From a virus, in the IMG/VR virus record IMGVR_UViG_3300021178_000007, positions 1-39,353 of that record: a stretch of DNA of 39,353 bases; one strand, written 5' to 3'. Positions 26,680-32,888 of the stretch are shown here, in pieces. Positions within the stretch are counted from its first letter, which is position 1. Each line of letters starts with the position of its first letter. The notes under the pieces were generated by a model. It was not told the origin of the DNA. It searched no databases and was given only the letters and a program-made list of their open reading frames with translations. A program made the translations under genes and the position numbers.

Positions 26680-27426
26680 ATGCAAAATATAGAAAAAACA
26701 TCAGATTATGACAAATTCAGATTATTAGATGGCAATAGGCCGATAGAAAAATACCACATTAAGAAACTCATTAAATCTATAGAAAAAGACAATCGGCTTA
26801 ATCTTCACCCTATTATAGTAAATAAAGATTTCTGTGTTATAGACGGTCAACATAGGCTAGAGGCTGCCAGACAACTAGGAATTGAAATATTCTACATTCA
26901 ATCCAATTCCATTTCAGATATGCATGTAATCGAATGCAACGTTAATCAAAAATCCTGGCAGGTCGAAAATTACATAGATTATTTTGCTATCAAGGAAAAA
27001 AAACCTGAATATATAAAGCTGAAAGACATGATGAAATCATCAAATCTACAACCTAAAGCACTTTTAACTTTGATTTTGGGCATGGTTACCACAAACATTT
27101 TGGATTTTTTGAAGACAGGAAAATTTCGGTTTCCTCAAAAAGACAATTCATCTTATATACTTTGTTTTTACTTGGATTATTTAGCCTACGTGAGAGACAA
27201 ACGAATTAAACCTATTTCTATGTTTACCAATCACAACTTCACGAGGTCTTTGAGATGGGTTTTCATGACATCAGGATTTGATCAATCTATTTTTTTTAAA
27301 AAACTTGACCTCCGTTGGTTTGATTTAAAGCCCCAAAGATGTGCTGAGGATTGGTATTCACTTTTAATTTCTATATACAATTTCAAGAATCACAACAAAC
27401 TTGCTGAAGAATATGCCGACTTATAA
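26680..27426 (+). CDS. ParB-like nuclease-domain protein
   Basis: This is a 248-residue protein. Residues 12-75 match the ParB/sulfiredoxin-like domain: D-G-N-R-P-I-x3-H-I-x2-L-x2-S-I, then P-I-I-V-N and the signature V-I-D-G-Q-H-R-L-E-A-A (about 53-63). The rest (75-248) is a helical domain of unknown type with many aromatic residues. Phage proteins of this kind are CTP/ATP-binding regulators or nucleases of unclear role. The gene lies in a plus-strand island inside late genes, AAAGGA precedes the ATG and the next gene overlaps it. Confidence 0.75.
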   Translation: MQNIEKTSDYDKFRLLDGNRPIEKYHIKKLIKSIEKDNRLNLHPIIVNKDFCVIDGQHRLEAARQLGIEIFYIQSNSISDMHVIECNVNQKSWQVENYIDYFAIKEKKPEYIKLKDMMKSSNLQPKALLTLILGMVTTNILDFLKTGKFRFPQKDNSSYILCFYLDYLAYVRDKRIKPISMFTNHNFTRSLRWVFMTSGFDQSIFFKKLDLRWFDLKPQRCAEDWYSLLISIYNFKNHNKLAEEYADL

Positions 27427-28333
27427 AGATTATTCAGGAAAAAAGTTTGGAAATTGGACTATTTTAAAAAGAATATTACCACATCGACCAGCAAAATATC
27501 TCTGCAAATGTGACTGTGGAAAAGAATCAGAGGTTTTTCTAACGAACCTCATTAGAGGATATTCCAATAATTGCAGAGATTGCCAGTCATTAAAACCTTC
27601 TGCATGGTTAGTCGGTAAAAAATTAAATCACTTAAATATTCTAGCGATAGAAAAGATTAACAATAAAGCCACAGCAAAGGTTTTATGTGACTGCGGAAAT
27701 CTATTATACATGGATATTGGTAAAATCCAAAAACATGAAGGAAGTCAGATAACTAGCAAGTATATTGCATGTGGTAAATGTAAATTATCTAAACCTAAAA
27801 TAGTCAATTTTAACATAATTAAAGTAGGATTCAAAAAAGGAACATTAACTGTAATAAAAGAATTAAATAAAAAGGAATCTTTAGCTTTATGCAGTTGTGG
27901 GAATGAAAAAATAATCAAATTTCATCATATGAAAAGAGAATTTCCCCATTGTGGTTGTCTTTTAACCCAAAGAAATATAGATAGAGCTAAGAAACTTGAA
28001 GGAACAACATATTTTTATTTGAAAGTCATTAAATTTCTAGGAATGGGTTCAGATAAAAGATCTCTGTATTTAATTAAATGTAAATGCGGTAAAAAATTCG
28101 AACAATCCATATCTTATTTATTCGGATCTAAATCTTGTGGTTGTTTACATAAAGAAAATGTGCCGAGGGGATCAAACAATTCAAACTCCAAACTTACTGA
28201 AATAGAAGTGAAATCAATGAGAAATTTATATGAATCTGGATTATATACGCGAGTAGAACTTTCTAAGATGTATGAAGTGGAATTATCAAATGTTTGCAAT
28301 ATTATTAGTCGGAAAGGATGGAAACACGTCTAG
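27413..28333 (+). CDS. Four-module zinc-ribbon protein with C-terminal HTH
   Basis: This protein has 306 residues from ATG 27413, which overlaps the ParB-like gene. Four modules of about 60 residues each consist of a W/L-T-I/V-L-K-type strand, a C-x-C-(D)-C-G or C-x-C-G knuckle and a later C-x-C-(G/L) or C-x-x-C pair: about 24-56, 81-126, 153-188 and 207-245. The modules resemble the zinc ribbons of phage HNH/AP2-type proteins, but no HNH catalytic motif is seen. The last 45 residues form a helix-turn-helix (EIEVKSMRNLYESGLYTRVELSKMY). This is probably a multi-site nucleic-acid binding protein. Confidence 0.65.
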   Translation: MPTYKDYSGKKFGNWTILKRILPHRPAKYLCKCDCGKESEVFLTNLIRGYSNNCRDCQSLKPSAWLVGKKLNHLNILAIEKINNKATAKVLCDCGNLLYMDIGKIQKHEGSQITSKYIACGKCKLSKPKIVNFNIIKVGFKKGTLTVIKELNKKESLALCSCGNEKIIKFHHMKREFPHCGCLLTQRNIDRAKKLEGTTYFYLKVIKFLGMGSDKRSLYLIKCKCGKKFEQSISYLFGSKSCGCLHKENVPRGSNNSNSKLTEIEVKSMRNLYESGLYTRVELSKMYEVELSNVCNIISRKGWKHV

Positions 28334-28406
28334 GACAGCAAAGCTCTTGCTAAGAAATACCAATATATACAGTATGGGAATATCACTCTAAATAAGGAGA
28401 AATCCC

Positions 28407-29048
28407 ATGGGCTGCGATTTGAAAAAGGACATAAGATTAGTTTTAAAAAACACAACATCTTTAGCTGAACTTGAGCAGATCAGCAAAAAAGCTACGCAAA
28501 ATATAACTTTTTGTGGGTATAGGTACTTAGCCTTTAGTGGATATAAAGGAACCACATCTCTTTACAAGATTCAAGAAAAATTAAATTTCATATTAGATAA
28601 CAATCCAGCTAAGAGTGATCCAGCTAAGATAACTGAAAAAAACCACACTTTAGCTATAAGAAGAATAATACTAGAGCTAGGCGTAGAGAATTTTGAAAGA
28701 AAAACGAACATCATAACACGTATAATGCTGATTATTAGGGATTTTTTTCGTAAATGGACTGCTGCTGGAAATGAAGTCCACTATATTTTGAAGAAAAATT
28801 TATTAAAGCAACAGGAAGATAAGTTCTTAGAAAATGTCAGGATTCAGGTTAGGGATCAGATAATACAGGAAGTAAGGAACGAAGTTAGAAGAGAGCTTAG
28901 GGAGCCTAGAGAAGGAGAAATCCGATTAAGAGTTCCATCAAATCAAGAATCTCCAAGATTTGCAAACCGAAATGCTGATTCCCCAATACCTTCTACTAGT
29001 GAAGATATAGCACCAGGTCTAAAAGTCTTAAGTGACGTATCTTCTTAA
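28407..29048 (+). CDS. Unknown protein with its own promoter and terminator (moron)
   Basis: This 213-residue protein has AAGGAG before the ATG and a terminator directly after. The N-terminal 90 residues are mixed with a tyrosine-rich FCGYRYLAFSGY segment. Residues 95-125 have a hydrophobic helix (NIITRIMLIIRDFFRKW), residues 130-170 a charged coiled coil, and the tail from 170 is disordered and proline/serine-rich. It does not resemble any virion or replication family I know. As a free-standing unit within late genes it fits a moron that may act on the host. Confidence 0.55.
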   Translation: MGCDLKKDIRLVLKNTTSLAELEQISKKATQNITFCGYRYLAFSGYKGTTSLYKIQEKLNFILDNNPAKSDPAKITEKNHTLAIRRIILELGVENFERKTNIITRIMLIIRDFFRKWTAAGNEVHYILKKNLLKQQEDKFLENVRIQVRDQIIQEVRNEVRRELREPREGEIRLRVPSNQESPRFANRNADSPIPSTSEDIAPGLKVLSDVSS

Positions 29049-30070: not shown

Positions 30071-31165
30071 CTAAGTATTATTTGGGAAAGATTGTAAAGC
30101 TGTAGTAGCTTCCCATTCCCAAGCATCTGCGGTAGATCCTATGATCCCGCCAGTTGTAGCACTATTTGTGCCGTCTCCTGCTCCGATCAAAATTCCATTG
30201 AATCCCTGATTTTGTTTTGTAAAACCTAGGATATTTTGGTTCCCGTAAGGTAAAGGAGTTGGAACAACGTTAAGTAAGTTGTTCGTATTTCCTTCCCCTT
30301 GAGGAATCATTTGAGGGAATGATGTGGGATATTGAGAGGCAAGCAATGACACTAAAGCAGTGAAATTAGTGCTATCGGTATTTGCAAACGTCACCGTTTG
30401 AGTTCCAATAGCGTTATTTACAGATGATACAGTGAATTGCAGGGGCAATCCGTTGGTTGTGGAATTAAGCTGCTGCATACCGAAAGCGGTAGGAATAGCA
30501 AATCTAACCACATCTCCTACTTGATAGTTCTGTTGAACTAATGTAGTAACAACCATAGGATTTGCCTGAGTAATCTTTGCTACTACCCTATTTTCCGGAT
30601 AATAGAGACTTCTCATTGGCAAATTGGCATTTCCAACTTTATATACTGTGAAAACGCTTGTTAAAGCATTTGTGGTATCTAATAAAGTGGTAAATGTATT
30701 TGTTGTAACTGCTGTAACAGTCATTGTTAAACCAGCAATTTGAGGTGCTGATGTAACGTTAACAATTCTAACATTATCTCCCACCTGAAAACCGTGTGCC
30801 GCTGCTGTGAAAACAGTAGGTTGCCCAGGAACAAAACTTGCACCTGAAACGTTCGGACCATTTGCTTGGGTTGATGCATTAAAGATTGTAAATCCATTAA
30901 TTGCACAAATGCCGTTATTCAGAGGTGCTAAAATTCCTGAAACAGTTCCGTTTTGTCGAATTAAAGCTGTCCCCGCAGCATAAACAGGATTAAAATAAGC
31001 TTCTACAATTCTTGTAGAAGTTAAAGATCCTGAAACTCCCAAAGCTGTAATGCCAGATCTTGTGAGATTCCTTAGGACAAATCTATTGATTTGCTGTTCT
31101 AAAGGAATGAAAAAAGGTGTAGAAGCAACGTTTACAAAGCTTCCTGTAGTAATTTGTGTACTCAT
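30071..31165 (-). CDS. Capsid-associated (decoration or head) protein
   Basis: This 364-residue protein is encoded directly after the capsid gene behind a strong GGAGGT ribosome binding site, so it is probably made in large amount. It is beta-rich. Residues 120-175 form an FCCH-type domain (AAHGFQVGDNVRIVN ... AGLTMTVTAVTTNTFT), and residues 195-260 are the module shared with the 26145-26555 protein. A glycine-rich end follows (GAGDGTNSATTGG). A decoration or minor head protein is the best fit. Confidence 0.6.
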   Translation of the reverse strand: MSTQITTGSFVNVASTPFFIPLEQQINRFVLRNLTRSGITALGVSGSLTSTRIVEAYFNPVYAAGTALIRQNGTVSGILAPLNNGICAINGFTIFNASTQANGPNVSGASFVPGQPTVFTAAAHGFQVGDNVRIVNVTSAPQIAGLTMTVTAVTTNTFTTLLDTTNALTSVFTVYKVGNANLPMRSLYYPENRVVAKITQANPMVVTTLVQQNYQVGDVVRFAIPTAFGMQQLNSTTNGLPLQFTVSSVNNAIGTQTVTFANTDSTNFTALVSLLASQYPTSFPQMIPQGEGNTNNLLNVVPTPLPYGNQNILGFTKQNQGFNGILIGAGDGTNSATTGGIIGSTADAWEWEATTALQSFPNNT

Positions 31166-31176
31166 ATATTACCTCC

Positions 31177-31846
31177 TTAAATTGCTACCGAGAGCGTGCA
31201 ACGTAAGTTGACGATCCAGCTTGTGTTAGTGATATTGAATACTTGTGCCATTTTCCAACCGGCTGTCTGATAAAGTCTCAAACGTGGGCTGGCAATTTCT
31301 GGTGGTGCATAGATGAATTGAGCGGAATAACCGTCTAAATCAACCATGTCGTAGCTTTCTTGACCCGGCAAGAAGATGTTGTAAACATCAGCTCCGTTTG
31401 CAGAAGCAGCAGGAGAAATGGAACCAACTGAGGACAATAGGAAACGAATGTTTCTTACGGAACCCCATTCAGCTTGCAACAGATTACTGTTATTTGCGTA
31501 ATTGGCTACGTTGATAAATCCAAGCATTTGATCCAAGTCAGCGGACAGGTTTGTATGGCCTAAACCAAAAAACGCTGTACGTACTGGAGCAGTACCGAAT
31601 TTATTTTCGCCTTCAATCAAATCCTGTATGAACTGAGCATTAGCTGTACGTAATAAACGTACTGCTTTAGAACAGTCAAGAGGAGTGATGTTAGTTGGGT
31701 TGTCTCCGTTTGTACCTGATGTACAATTAATTGGAGGCGCTCCCCCTTCCATCATAGATCTTGCTAATTGATCTTCGGTTTCTCTTAAGGATTGTCCCAA
31801 AGTAGAAACGGCAGAATTTAGCACAGGATCTTCGTTGATAAGCATT
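31177..31846 (-). CDS. Major capsid protein, 3' exon
   Basis: This is the C-terminal 222 residues of an N4-gp56-like HK97-fold capsid protein. Recognisable parts are NEDPVLNSAVSTLGQSLRET, FIQDLIEGENKFGTAPVRTA, AEWGSVRNIRFLLSS, and ADVYNIFLPGQESYDMVDLD with the final W-x-V-N-L-R strand. The frame has a stop (TGA) just before the first ATG at 31845, so translation must come by joining to the upstream exon at 32595-32888 after splicing. The join lies within a few bases of 31843-31847. The two exons together give about 317 residues, a normal size for the family. Confidence 0.85.
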
Positions 31847-32604
31847 CATTCTGTTACTTTATGACCTAGTTACATCGTGCTACATTGCTCACAACTAGGC
31901 GGAGGGTCTTGTTATTCCCCTCTCAATGACTTTCGTCATTGTTCAGACTATCGCTTCAACCTCTCGGCTGTTTTTGGGCTTAGTCGTTGCGGCTACTCCA
32001 ACAGCATTCAGCTCTTTACATTTTATGTAAAAGTCCTGTCTGCGCTGTATTTCTTCAGGATATGTACCCAACTTCTTTGAATGGGCTAAAACCCATCCCA
32101 AGCACATTTCTTTAACCAATAGAGCTTGTTTTCTCTTTACGAGTAGGAAAGGTAATATTAGATCTATAACCTTCACAACATCATCCCTATTTGTAACAAC
32201 CCATCTAAACATGGGGTTTTGGTTTGGTCTATCCTGTCGAAAGCCTTCGTAGTATATTTTTCCGCATCCAAATGTTTCTTGAAGAAACTTCATTGGGTTT
32301 TCTTCTTTCATTCCCACACGGATTAAAGGAGCATGTAGAGGATTCGTTCTGTTTTGCATGGGTTTTGTTTTCGTCACACATATAGAACCTTCTCCATCTA
32401 TAAGCCCCGAACAATATGCTATTCGAAGCGTTTGCCTCTGGTTGCCTTGCATTTTTATCTCCTTTATGTTAGTCCCGTCACATACTAACATAATATTGAT
32501 TAAATGTTTAGGTTTTCCAAGTAATCACCAAAAATTTATAGCAGGCAATGTCATCTACCTGCTCTTGCAGAATCAAGTAAGTACCGTCAAGTTCTTACGC
32601 TGCA
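31847..32604 (-). ncRNA. Group I intron in the major capsid gene
   Basis: The capsid frame is interrupted by about 750 bases containing a homing endonuclease gene. Core-like elements on the minus strand are GTGACGGGACTAAC (R/P7-like, 32481-32468) before the endonuclease gene and GATAGTCTGAAC (S/P7'-like, 31952-31941) overlapping its stop. A GAAA-capped hairpin (31925-31940, P9-like) and CCTAGTT/AACTAGG (31865-31899) follow. At the 5' end a 9-pair stem joins 32563-32570 to 32600-32607. The exact splice sites are not settled; the coordinates use the in-frame choice ...CTTCT / AATGCTT. Confidence 0.75.
31943..32452 (-). CDS. LAGLIDADG homing endonuclease (intron-encoded)
   Basis: This 169-residue endonuclease starts at the ATG at 32452, which has AAAGGAG upstream; the frame is open further up. 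It carries a single LAGLIDADG motif near the start (SGLIDGEGSI) and a downstream VKRKQALLVKEM helix typical of the family, so it probably works as a homodimer. It cuts intron-less capsid genes and thereby spreads the intron. Its stop codon lies within the P7'-like intron element, an economical overlap often seen in such introns. Confidence 0.85.
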   Translation of the reverse strand: MQGNQRQTLRIAYCSGLIDGEGSICVTKTKPMQNRTNPLHAPLIRVGMKEENPMKFLQETFGCGKIYYEGFRQDRPNQNPMFRWVVTNRDDVVKVIDLILPFLLVKRKQALLVKEMCLGWVLAHSKKLGTYPEEIQRRQDFYIKCKELNAVGVAATTKPKNSREVEAIV

Positions 32605-32888
32605 AGAAGATTGGCACGGTCATTTAACCAATCTATACGGGCATCAATATCCAATGCAGTCAATTGCTGCGCTGGAGGATCTACAATTCCATTACCAAGT
32701 GGTACAGGAGCTGTAAGTAAGTTCTGATATCTACGTCTGCGTAGAATATCTCCAGCCTGTTGATCCATAGTTATAGGATATCCCATAGTTGTATGAATCA
32801 AATCAGGCATAGGACGAGCAAGCAATTTCATGCTCAACTGTTGTTGTACAGCTGGAGGCAGAATGCTTGTTGTTGTAGGACCTGACAT
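32595..32888 (-). CDS. Major capsid protein, 5' exon
   Basis: This is the N-terminal part (97 codons before a stop) of the capsid protein: a helical N-arm (LPPAVQQQLSMKLLARPMPD), then PITMDQQAGDILRRRRYQNL and PPAQQLTALDIDARIDWLND, which match the first beta strands of the N4-gp56 family. Homology to the family ends near W84-N86 (DWLND...). The last few residues and the TAA at 32595 are probably intron read-through. The scaffold gene lies directly upstream, as usual. A hairpin covers the ribosome binding site. Confidence 0.85.
   Translation of the reverse strand: MSGPTTTSILPPAVQQQLSMKLLARPMPDLIHTTMGYPITMDQQAGDILRRRRYQNLLTAPVPLGNGIVDPPAQQLTALDIDARIDWLNDRANLLAA

Follow-up and report, generated by a model that had tools for sequence, protein, structure and literature searches.

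The DNA analysed here, the virus record IMGVR_UViG_3300021178_000007 of IMG/VR, whose full 39,353 nt are referred to as the window, carries a major capsid gene broken into two minus-strand open reading frames of 97 (32888-32595) and 222 codons (31845-31177). The arrangement raises the question of how a single protein is made from this gene, and of what becomes of the polypeptide that ribosomes produce when they read past the end of the first exon. An initial annotation had described the gene as split by one group I intron with a LAGLIDADG gene inside it. Both frames match the major head protein family phrog_1357 (E 0.008 for exon 1, 2e-18 for exon 3) and, in agreement with that annotation, are parts of one capsid protein; the Pfam profile Phage_capsid_4, run on an intron-less relative, reaches 20 bits, under its cut-off of 27.

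Exons and insertions of the capsid gene

Relatives were collected by scanning with the second capsid part, which led to 80 viral contigs, and with the first part, which added more; the comparison set covering the split-capsid region comprises 79 of them. Intron-less relatives read uninterruptedly through ALDIDARIDW-YGTYLILQEQV-MLINEDP, and aligning the exons with these sequences, a check that had been proposed at the outset, locates the residues that appeared to be missing: the bases encoding GTYLILQEQV sit within the supposed gap of the window, at 32587-32557. The single-intron model was consequently rejected. A splice-aware protein-to-DNA alignment of a 320-aa intron-less capsid protein (L001) against 93 loci and the window resolves the gap into two insertions, of 39 nt (insert A) and 710 nt (intron B), which are separated by a 31-nt exon and both start after a U and end in G. 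The scoring gave a small bonus to splice-site letters; T^ and G^ are still found at nearly every site.

All features of the gene lie on the minus strand. Exon 1 (32627..32888) comprises codons 1-87 and the first base of codon 88, and ends in GATTGGT (32633-32627), the exon strand of the P1 helix of insert A (P1-A). Insert A itself (32588..32626) has the splice sites T^TAAA and CTTG^ACGG, and is followed by exon 2 (32557..32587), which completes codon 88, extends two bases into codon 98, encodes YGTYLILQEQV and ends in GCAGGT (32562-32557), the exon strand of the corresponding helix of intron B (P1-B). Intron B (31847..32556) closes with a 3'-terminal G at 31847, and exon 3 (31177..31846) supplies the last base of codon 98 and continues through codon 320 to the stop. 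Taking out both insertions leaves every junction in frame and restores a single 320-codon capsid frame, establishing the exon/intron boundaries.

Contrary to the earlier statement that P1, P10 and the reading frame cannot all be satisfied by one pair of splice sites, two pairs do so, namely ATTGGT^TAAA...CTTG^ACGG (39 nt) and GCAGGT^AGAT...AATG^AATG (710 nt). The strong out-of-frame P1 that had caused the difficulty is real but belongs to the separate core-less insert, whose guide hairpin is AGATTGGT/GCCAATCT. Likewise, the suspicion of an unusual splicing mechanism falls away for the long intron, which is ordinary, and retains substance in the presence of that insert. Splicing site A directly to the last exon was also considered and discarded, as the junction GATTGGT+AATGC creates a stop codon and loses the conserved peptide.

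Introns in capsid genes had further been called rare, which is not so in this clade: 43 of its 59 full-length capsid genes are interrupted, one to four times each and at nine or ten sites overall (36, 78, 87, 97, 105, 117, 133, 145, 182 and 215). Up to four interruptions are seen in capsid genes of about 960 coding bases (L039, L046, L047, L051, L052, L061, L062 and L066).

A group I ribozyme and a core-less neighbour

Intron B has the P1 helix GCAGGT^/GCCTGC, with its internal guide sequence (IGS) at 32546-32541 and a U.G pair at the 5' splice site, and a 3' splice site AATG^AATG with a terminal guanosine, a rule that holds at nearly every intron of the clade. Its P10 strand CATT (32550-32547) pairs with the AATG of the 3' exon, 74 of 88 cells being paired over 22 sequences. 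The core includes P7 (GACTA 31985-31981 / TAGTC 31950-31946), P8 (CAGCC-GAGA-GGTTG, 31970-31957) and the GAAA-capped P9 hairpin noted initially. Among ten related short introns of 196-236 nt, which adopt P1, P4-P7 and P9-type helices, 32 of 46 base pairs show compensatory changes, and this establishes covariation of the core; a covariance model built from these introns (R1) finds as its two best matches in the window the two ends of intron B (28.6 and 23.7 bits), the 23.7-bit match stopping 3 nt beyond the deduced 3' splice site. R1 also matches the T4 nrdD intron, weakly. A search with the Rfam group I model, suggested initially, does match intron B (RF00028, 22.6 bits, E 0.003) but below the gathering score of 50, which is a library threshold and not a defining feature of the group I class; neither the window nor any of 12 related loci yields an Rfam intron at gathering level, and RF00028 under-detects this lineage. 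By its sequence, intron B is a group I intron and is predicted to be self-splicing; that the major capsid gene holds such an intron with a LAGLIDADG gene is borne out by the intron-less relatives, the splice-site rules, P1/P10 and R1.

The LAGLIDADG endonuclease gene in intron B (31943..32452; 169 aa) starts at an ATG at 32452, after AGGAG, within a longer frame that opens at 32491, and matches PF00961 at 29.4 bits (cut-off 23.1) with the motif GLIDGEG. P7-like strands had been placed on both sides of it; a P7 strand is indeed present, but GACTA (31985-31981) is within the 3' coding part of the gene rather than outside it. Given these P7 positions, the 3' end of the endonuclease gene (31943-31990) overlaps P7, P8 and P7', with its stop codon right after P7'. 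The gene shares motif and domain with other PF00961 endonucleases and is unusual only in overlapping P7 and P8 of its own ribozyme. Another LAGLIDADG gene, 34% identical to that of the window, lies just upstream of the capsid gene of Stenotrophomonas phage StenR_269 (L281, 4037-5498). This phage (H5) was rejected as a cultured relative with the same arrangement, its capsid gene being annotated as intact and downstream of a free-standing endonuclease gene.

Insert A, found in 22 contigs at lengths of 36-51 nt, presents P1, the U.G pair, P10 and the terminal G of a group I intron and lacks a core (P3-P9) of its own, so that it carries group I splice-site guides only. P1-A, formed with the IGS GCCAATC (32615-32609), is invariant (100% paired), with U.G at the splice site. 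The CCRT that precedes the guide hairpin (CCGT in the window, 32619-32616) pairs with AYGG at the start of exon 2 in 88 of 88 cells, in the matched forms CCGT/ACGG and CCAT/ATGG; the exon-side change is at a silent codon position, and the P10 type switches about six times on the capsid tree, two to three of these switches being forced by well-supported branches. An 8- to 9-pair stem previously assigned to the 5' part of the intron exists as the 8-bp TCTTGCAG/CTGCAAGA, but its two strands lie in the short insert and in exon 2, and it is not a 5' intron stem. Both insert-exon 2 stems covary, the inner one (GTAAG/CTTAC) with 13 double-change cells compared to about 3 in shuffles (0 of 500 as high), and the minimum free energy fold of the window includes these stems together with P1-B (z -4.0).

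Co-occurrence of the insert with the ribozyme is strict. Among 80 contigs spanning sites A and B, 21 carry both insertions and 58 are uninterrupted at both sites; B never occurs by itself, and the remaining contig (L062) has a full-length intron at A. The 22nd contig with a mini-insert ends just short of the coverage cut-off. Every mini-insert sits 31 nt upstream of the core at site B. The L062 intron, 689 nt long, occupies site A (site 87) with the same exon junction as the mini-insert while site B is empty, and possibly represents the ancestor of the mini-insert or an alternative state. Together, co-occurrence and guide sequences suggest that insert A, which we do not class among the group I introns, behaves as a substrate for the neighbouring ribozyme; intron B, which has the sole group I core identified in the window, would then act twice, removing insert A as well as itself.

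Could the insert be dealt with in another way? That the ribosome skips it unspliced, as in a translational bypassing element of the T4 gene 60 or mitochondrial byp type, might be imagined from its shortness, hairpin and in-frame stop, and from a GAT before the gap and a GAY at its end that could act as take-off and landing codons. Such a jump would nevertheless delete W87 and Y88, which intron-less relatives conserve, so that GAT and GAY do not behave as the matched codons of a bypassing element; moreover, bypassing leaves unexplained the covariation of P1 and P10, the terminal G, the group I intron at the same site of L062 and the co-occurrence with a ribozyme, and we give it almost no credence. 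Removal in trans, by another ribozyme or a protein of phage or host, deserves more attention, as cis catalysis by intron B is itself deduced and many relatives have several group I introns; it is still unlikely, considering that intron B is the one group I core found in the window and that each mini-insert is 31 nt upstream of a site-B core. The proposed removal of insert A by intron B also has an engineered parallel in group I trans-excision splicing and "spliceozymes" (PMC4094466), where a ribozyme likewise removes a core-less segment with its own pair of splice sites. Those systems act in trans with the guide on the ribozyme, whereas the unit of the window would be natural and act in cis, its IGS lying within the excised segment. 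If confirmed, the mini-intron would be a natural counterpart of spliceozymes and an example of an intron that lost its core and became dependent on its neighbour.

In-frame alanine tails of unspliced capsid frames

The most striking feature of the locus, absent from the initial annotation, is how the unspliced frame ends. Read without splicing, exon 1 continues into insert A as ...RIDW^LNDRANLLAA*, its last codons being CTT CTT GCA GCG TAA (32595..32609), and this LLAA* has the appearance of a candidate ssrA-like degron followed by a stop codon. The same ending recurs throughout the clade: at sites 78-215, with site B behind a mini-insert set aside, the unspliced frame ends in AA* in 60 of 64 introns and in VA* or DA* in the remainder (xA* in 64 of 64), compared with 0 of 128 shifted frames of the same introns and 10 of 4091 stops in all frames of the window (null 0.24%). 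The first two positions of the alanine codons are nearly fixed and the third is free, with 15 codon combinations in use; the residue at -3 is loose (L, I, M or K). Mini-inserts come in two sequence-unrelated forms, with LAA* before or after the IGS. At site 36, where the truncated product would be a stub of 36 residues, nearly all introns reach a stop immediately or no more than two codons in, and AA* occurs in 1 of 26 in any frame and in none in frame; site-B introns shielded by a mini-insert show it in 1 of 21.

A direct comparison at one RNA position is offered by the 5' core sequence of the lineage, which is conserved and encodes KxxLIDLE in one of its frames. At the next stop of this frame, AA* is present in 65 of 73 introns whose exon frame extends that far, with VA or TA as the ending of four of the eight exceptions, and in 4 of 74 whose exon frame does not (Fisher P 1.9e-27, although the introns are related and P values thus overstate independence); redundant and false loci were removed, and unreached frames are those with an early stop, another frame or an intervening mini-insert. 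Distances from the 5' splice site to AA* span 6-126 nt and the contexts are unrelated, so the ending arose several times. The in-frame AA* tails are under selection.

Because AA* depends on translation, RNA structure or composition cannot explain it. An RNA by-product, in which GC-rich GCNGC hairpins near P1 or P5 would yield the alanines without selection on the peptide, draws on the location of the alanine codons in or next to helices in two mycobacteriophage introns (BAKA and LittleE, see below) and in the common type of mini-insert; it is largely refuted by the contrast between translated and untranslated frames at the same RNA position, and is made very improbable by the exon-frame phasing, the scatter over 6-126 nt of unrelated context and the free third codon positions. 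Selection on the peptide for something other than ClpXP, be it other proteases, efficient termination or a functional truncated capsid isoform, would fit the loose -3 position, and other proteases also recognise C-terminal alanines. This second explanation remains a minority view, which we regard as rather unlikely: the pattern is that of ssrA-type C-termini (LAA, LVA), the tmRNA tags of the named hosts described below end in AA, and phages already use --LAA proteolysis tags (PMC9262239). The simplest reading of the constrained residues before the stop would be an ssrA-like ClpXP degron that clears truncated assembly proteins.

The following course of events is proposed. Intron B, mobile and bearing a LAGLIDADG gene, would excise itself, and its ribozyme, guided by the P1/P10 hairpin of the 39-nt insert, would also excise the core-less segment 31 nt upstream, the two excisions giving the mRNA for the 320-aa capsid protein. 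Since bacterial ribosomes can begin before splicing, those on unspliced RNA would read exon 1 into insert A and stop after ...ANLLAA; the C-terminus of the truncated capsid would mimic an ssrA tag, and ClpXP or a similar AAA+ protease should for that reason degrade the protein before it poisons head assembly. The stop codon of insert A would also keep ribosomes off the ribozyme, making the mini-insert a stop-and-degron cassette ahead of intron B. We consider this whole explanation, a three-exon capsid gene with both insertions removed by intron B and a degron-tagged unspliced product, to be probable. With slightly more reserve, we favour the wider proposition that one ribozyme removes itself and a core-less mini-intron placing a stop and an ssrA-like degron before it, in a lineage that repeatedly evolved ways of marking the products of failed splicing. 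Resemblance to ssrA tags suggests that the tail would serve this phage's host as a degron. The initial annotation surmised, not unreasonably, that splicing would be coupled to head assembly; what the data indicate is quality control when splicing fails.

Such a mechanism would offer an answer to how introns survive in top-expressed, assembly-critical phage genes where translation precedes splicing: a built-in degron would make failed splicing cheap and explain why capsid genes tolerate up to four introns.

Tails beyond the clade and related systems

A tail-independent core pattern was scanned through viral contigs and then named genomes, exon frames outside the capsid clade being assigned from open reading frame length and P1; a few loci in which no 5' splice site was found were left out, as were false hits to Wzc/ParA-type kinases in bacterial genomes. 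Among 48 confident introns in other viral contigs, 27 end in AA* and 4 in xA*, and most others stop within five codons. The genes interrupted there encode, among others, distant capsid proteins, tape measure proteins and anaerobic ribonucleotide reductase. Roughly one related intron in three reaches a stop after just a few codons, even where the preceding exon is long (320 codons in L165, for example), and the length of the truncated protein fails outside the capsid clade as a predictor of tag versus early stop. Prophages of Bacillus pumilus and Terribacillus aidingensis also show AA* tails, in tape measure genes, as does Peribacillus acanthi, in a capsid gene; the tmRNA tags of these named hosts, Bacillus pumilus, Terribacillus and Peribacillus, end in LAA, AAA and FAA.

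The introns of mycobacteriophages LittleE (capsid gene) and BAKA (tail gene), which RT-PCR has proven (PMC3706429), match R1 (E 7e-13 and 4e-21) and, examined after the hypothesis was formed, have the unspliced tails ...NSVATAAA* and ...SDDLAAAAA*. They share sequence and their alanine codons overlap the guide sequence, so they were counted as one case; with the IGS and a possible hairpin both overlapping these codons, the tails there might conceivably have an RNA origin. Like intron B, these two introns and that in the major structural protein gene of Tuc2009 combine a structural gene, a homing endonuclease and T^...G^ junctions. None of the three has a core-less companion, unlike the window; LittleE and BAKA resemble the window clade in that the unspliced frame reads into an AA* tail, whereas Tuc2009 has an early stop without AA. 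The passages of PMC3706429 on the LittleE and BAKA introns contain no discussion of the tails, and the idea is testable in these tractable phages on M. smegmatis.

In cultured phages, introns of other lineages end without AA* (T4 nrdD and nrdB, Tuc2009, Twort, PSU4, AR9/PBS1), as do those of StB12, IME1318, CRP-118, a Vibrio tape measure gene and others; the AA* tail is accordingly specific to one lineage and not universal. In the Bacillus phages AR9 and PBS1 (L330 and L331, 1179-2207), the unspliced tail of the virion-protein intron, ...FIALLALALP*, is hydrophobic. A direct nucleotide search with a 421-nt stretch containing a site-182 intron of the lineage gave 0 matches in 50,697 phage records, and a literature search combining introns with ssrA, degron or ClpXP returned nothing relevant.

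Two known phenomena come closest to the tails. When a group I intron has an in-frame stop close to its 5' end, this is usually interpreted as sparing the ribozyme from ribosomes (PMC3984707); the residues before such stops were not reported as constrained, whereas in the window clade they are. In integration-dependent immunity, mycobacteriophage integrase and repressor bear ssrA-like --LAA tags (PMC9262239), and there too the arrangement of a phage gene decides whether the C-terminal tag is present. In that system recombination at attP frees the repressor of its tag, while in the window RNA splicing would remove the tag, whose target would be the failed product.

Elsewhere in the window, three plus-strand open reading frames (26680-29048) lie inside the minus-strand late gene block, one of which (27401-28333) has repeated C-x-C-D-C-G motifs with a zinc-binding look. 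Downstream of the capsid gene, the gene at 30071-31165 shows weak similarity to an E1_FCCH-like repeat domain (PF16190), its 26.8 bits falling just below the cut-off.
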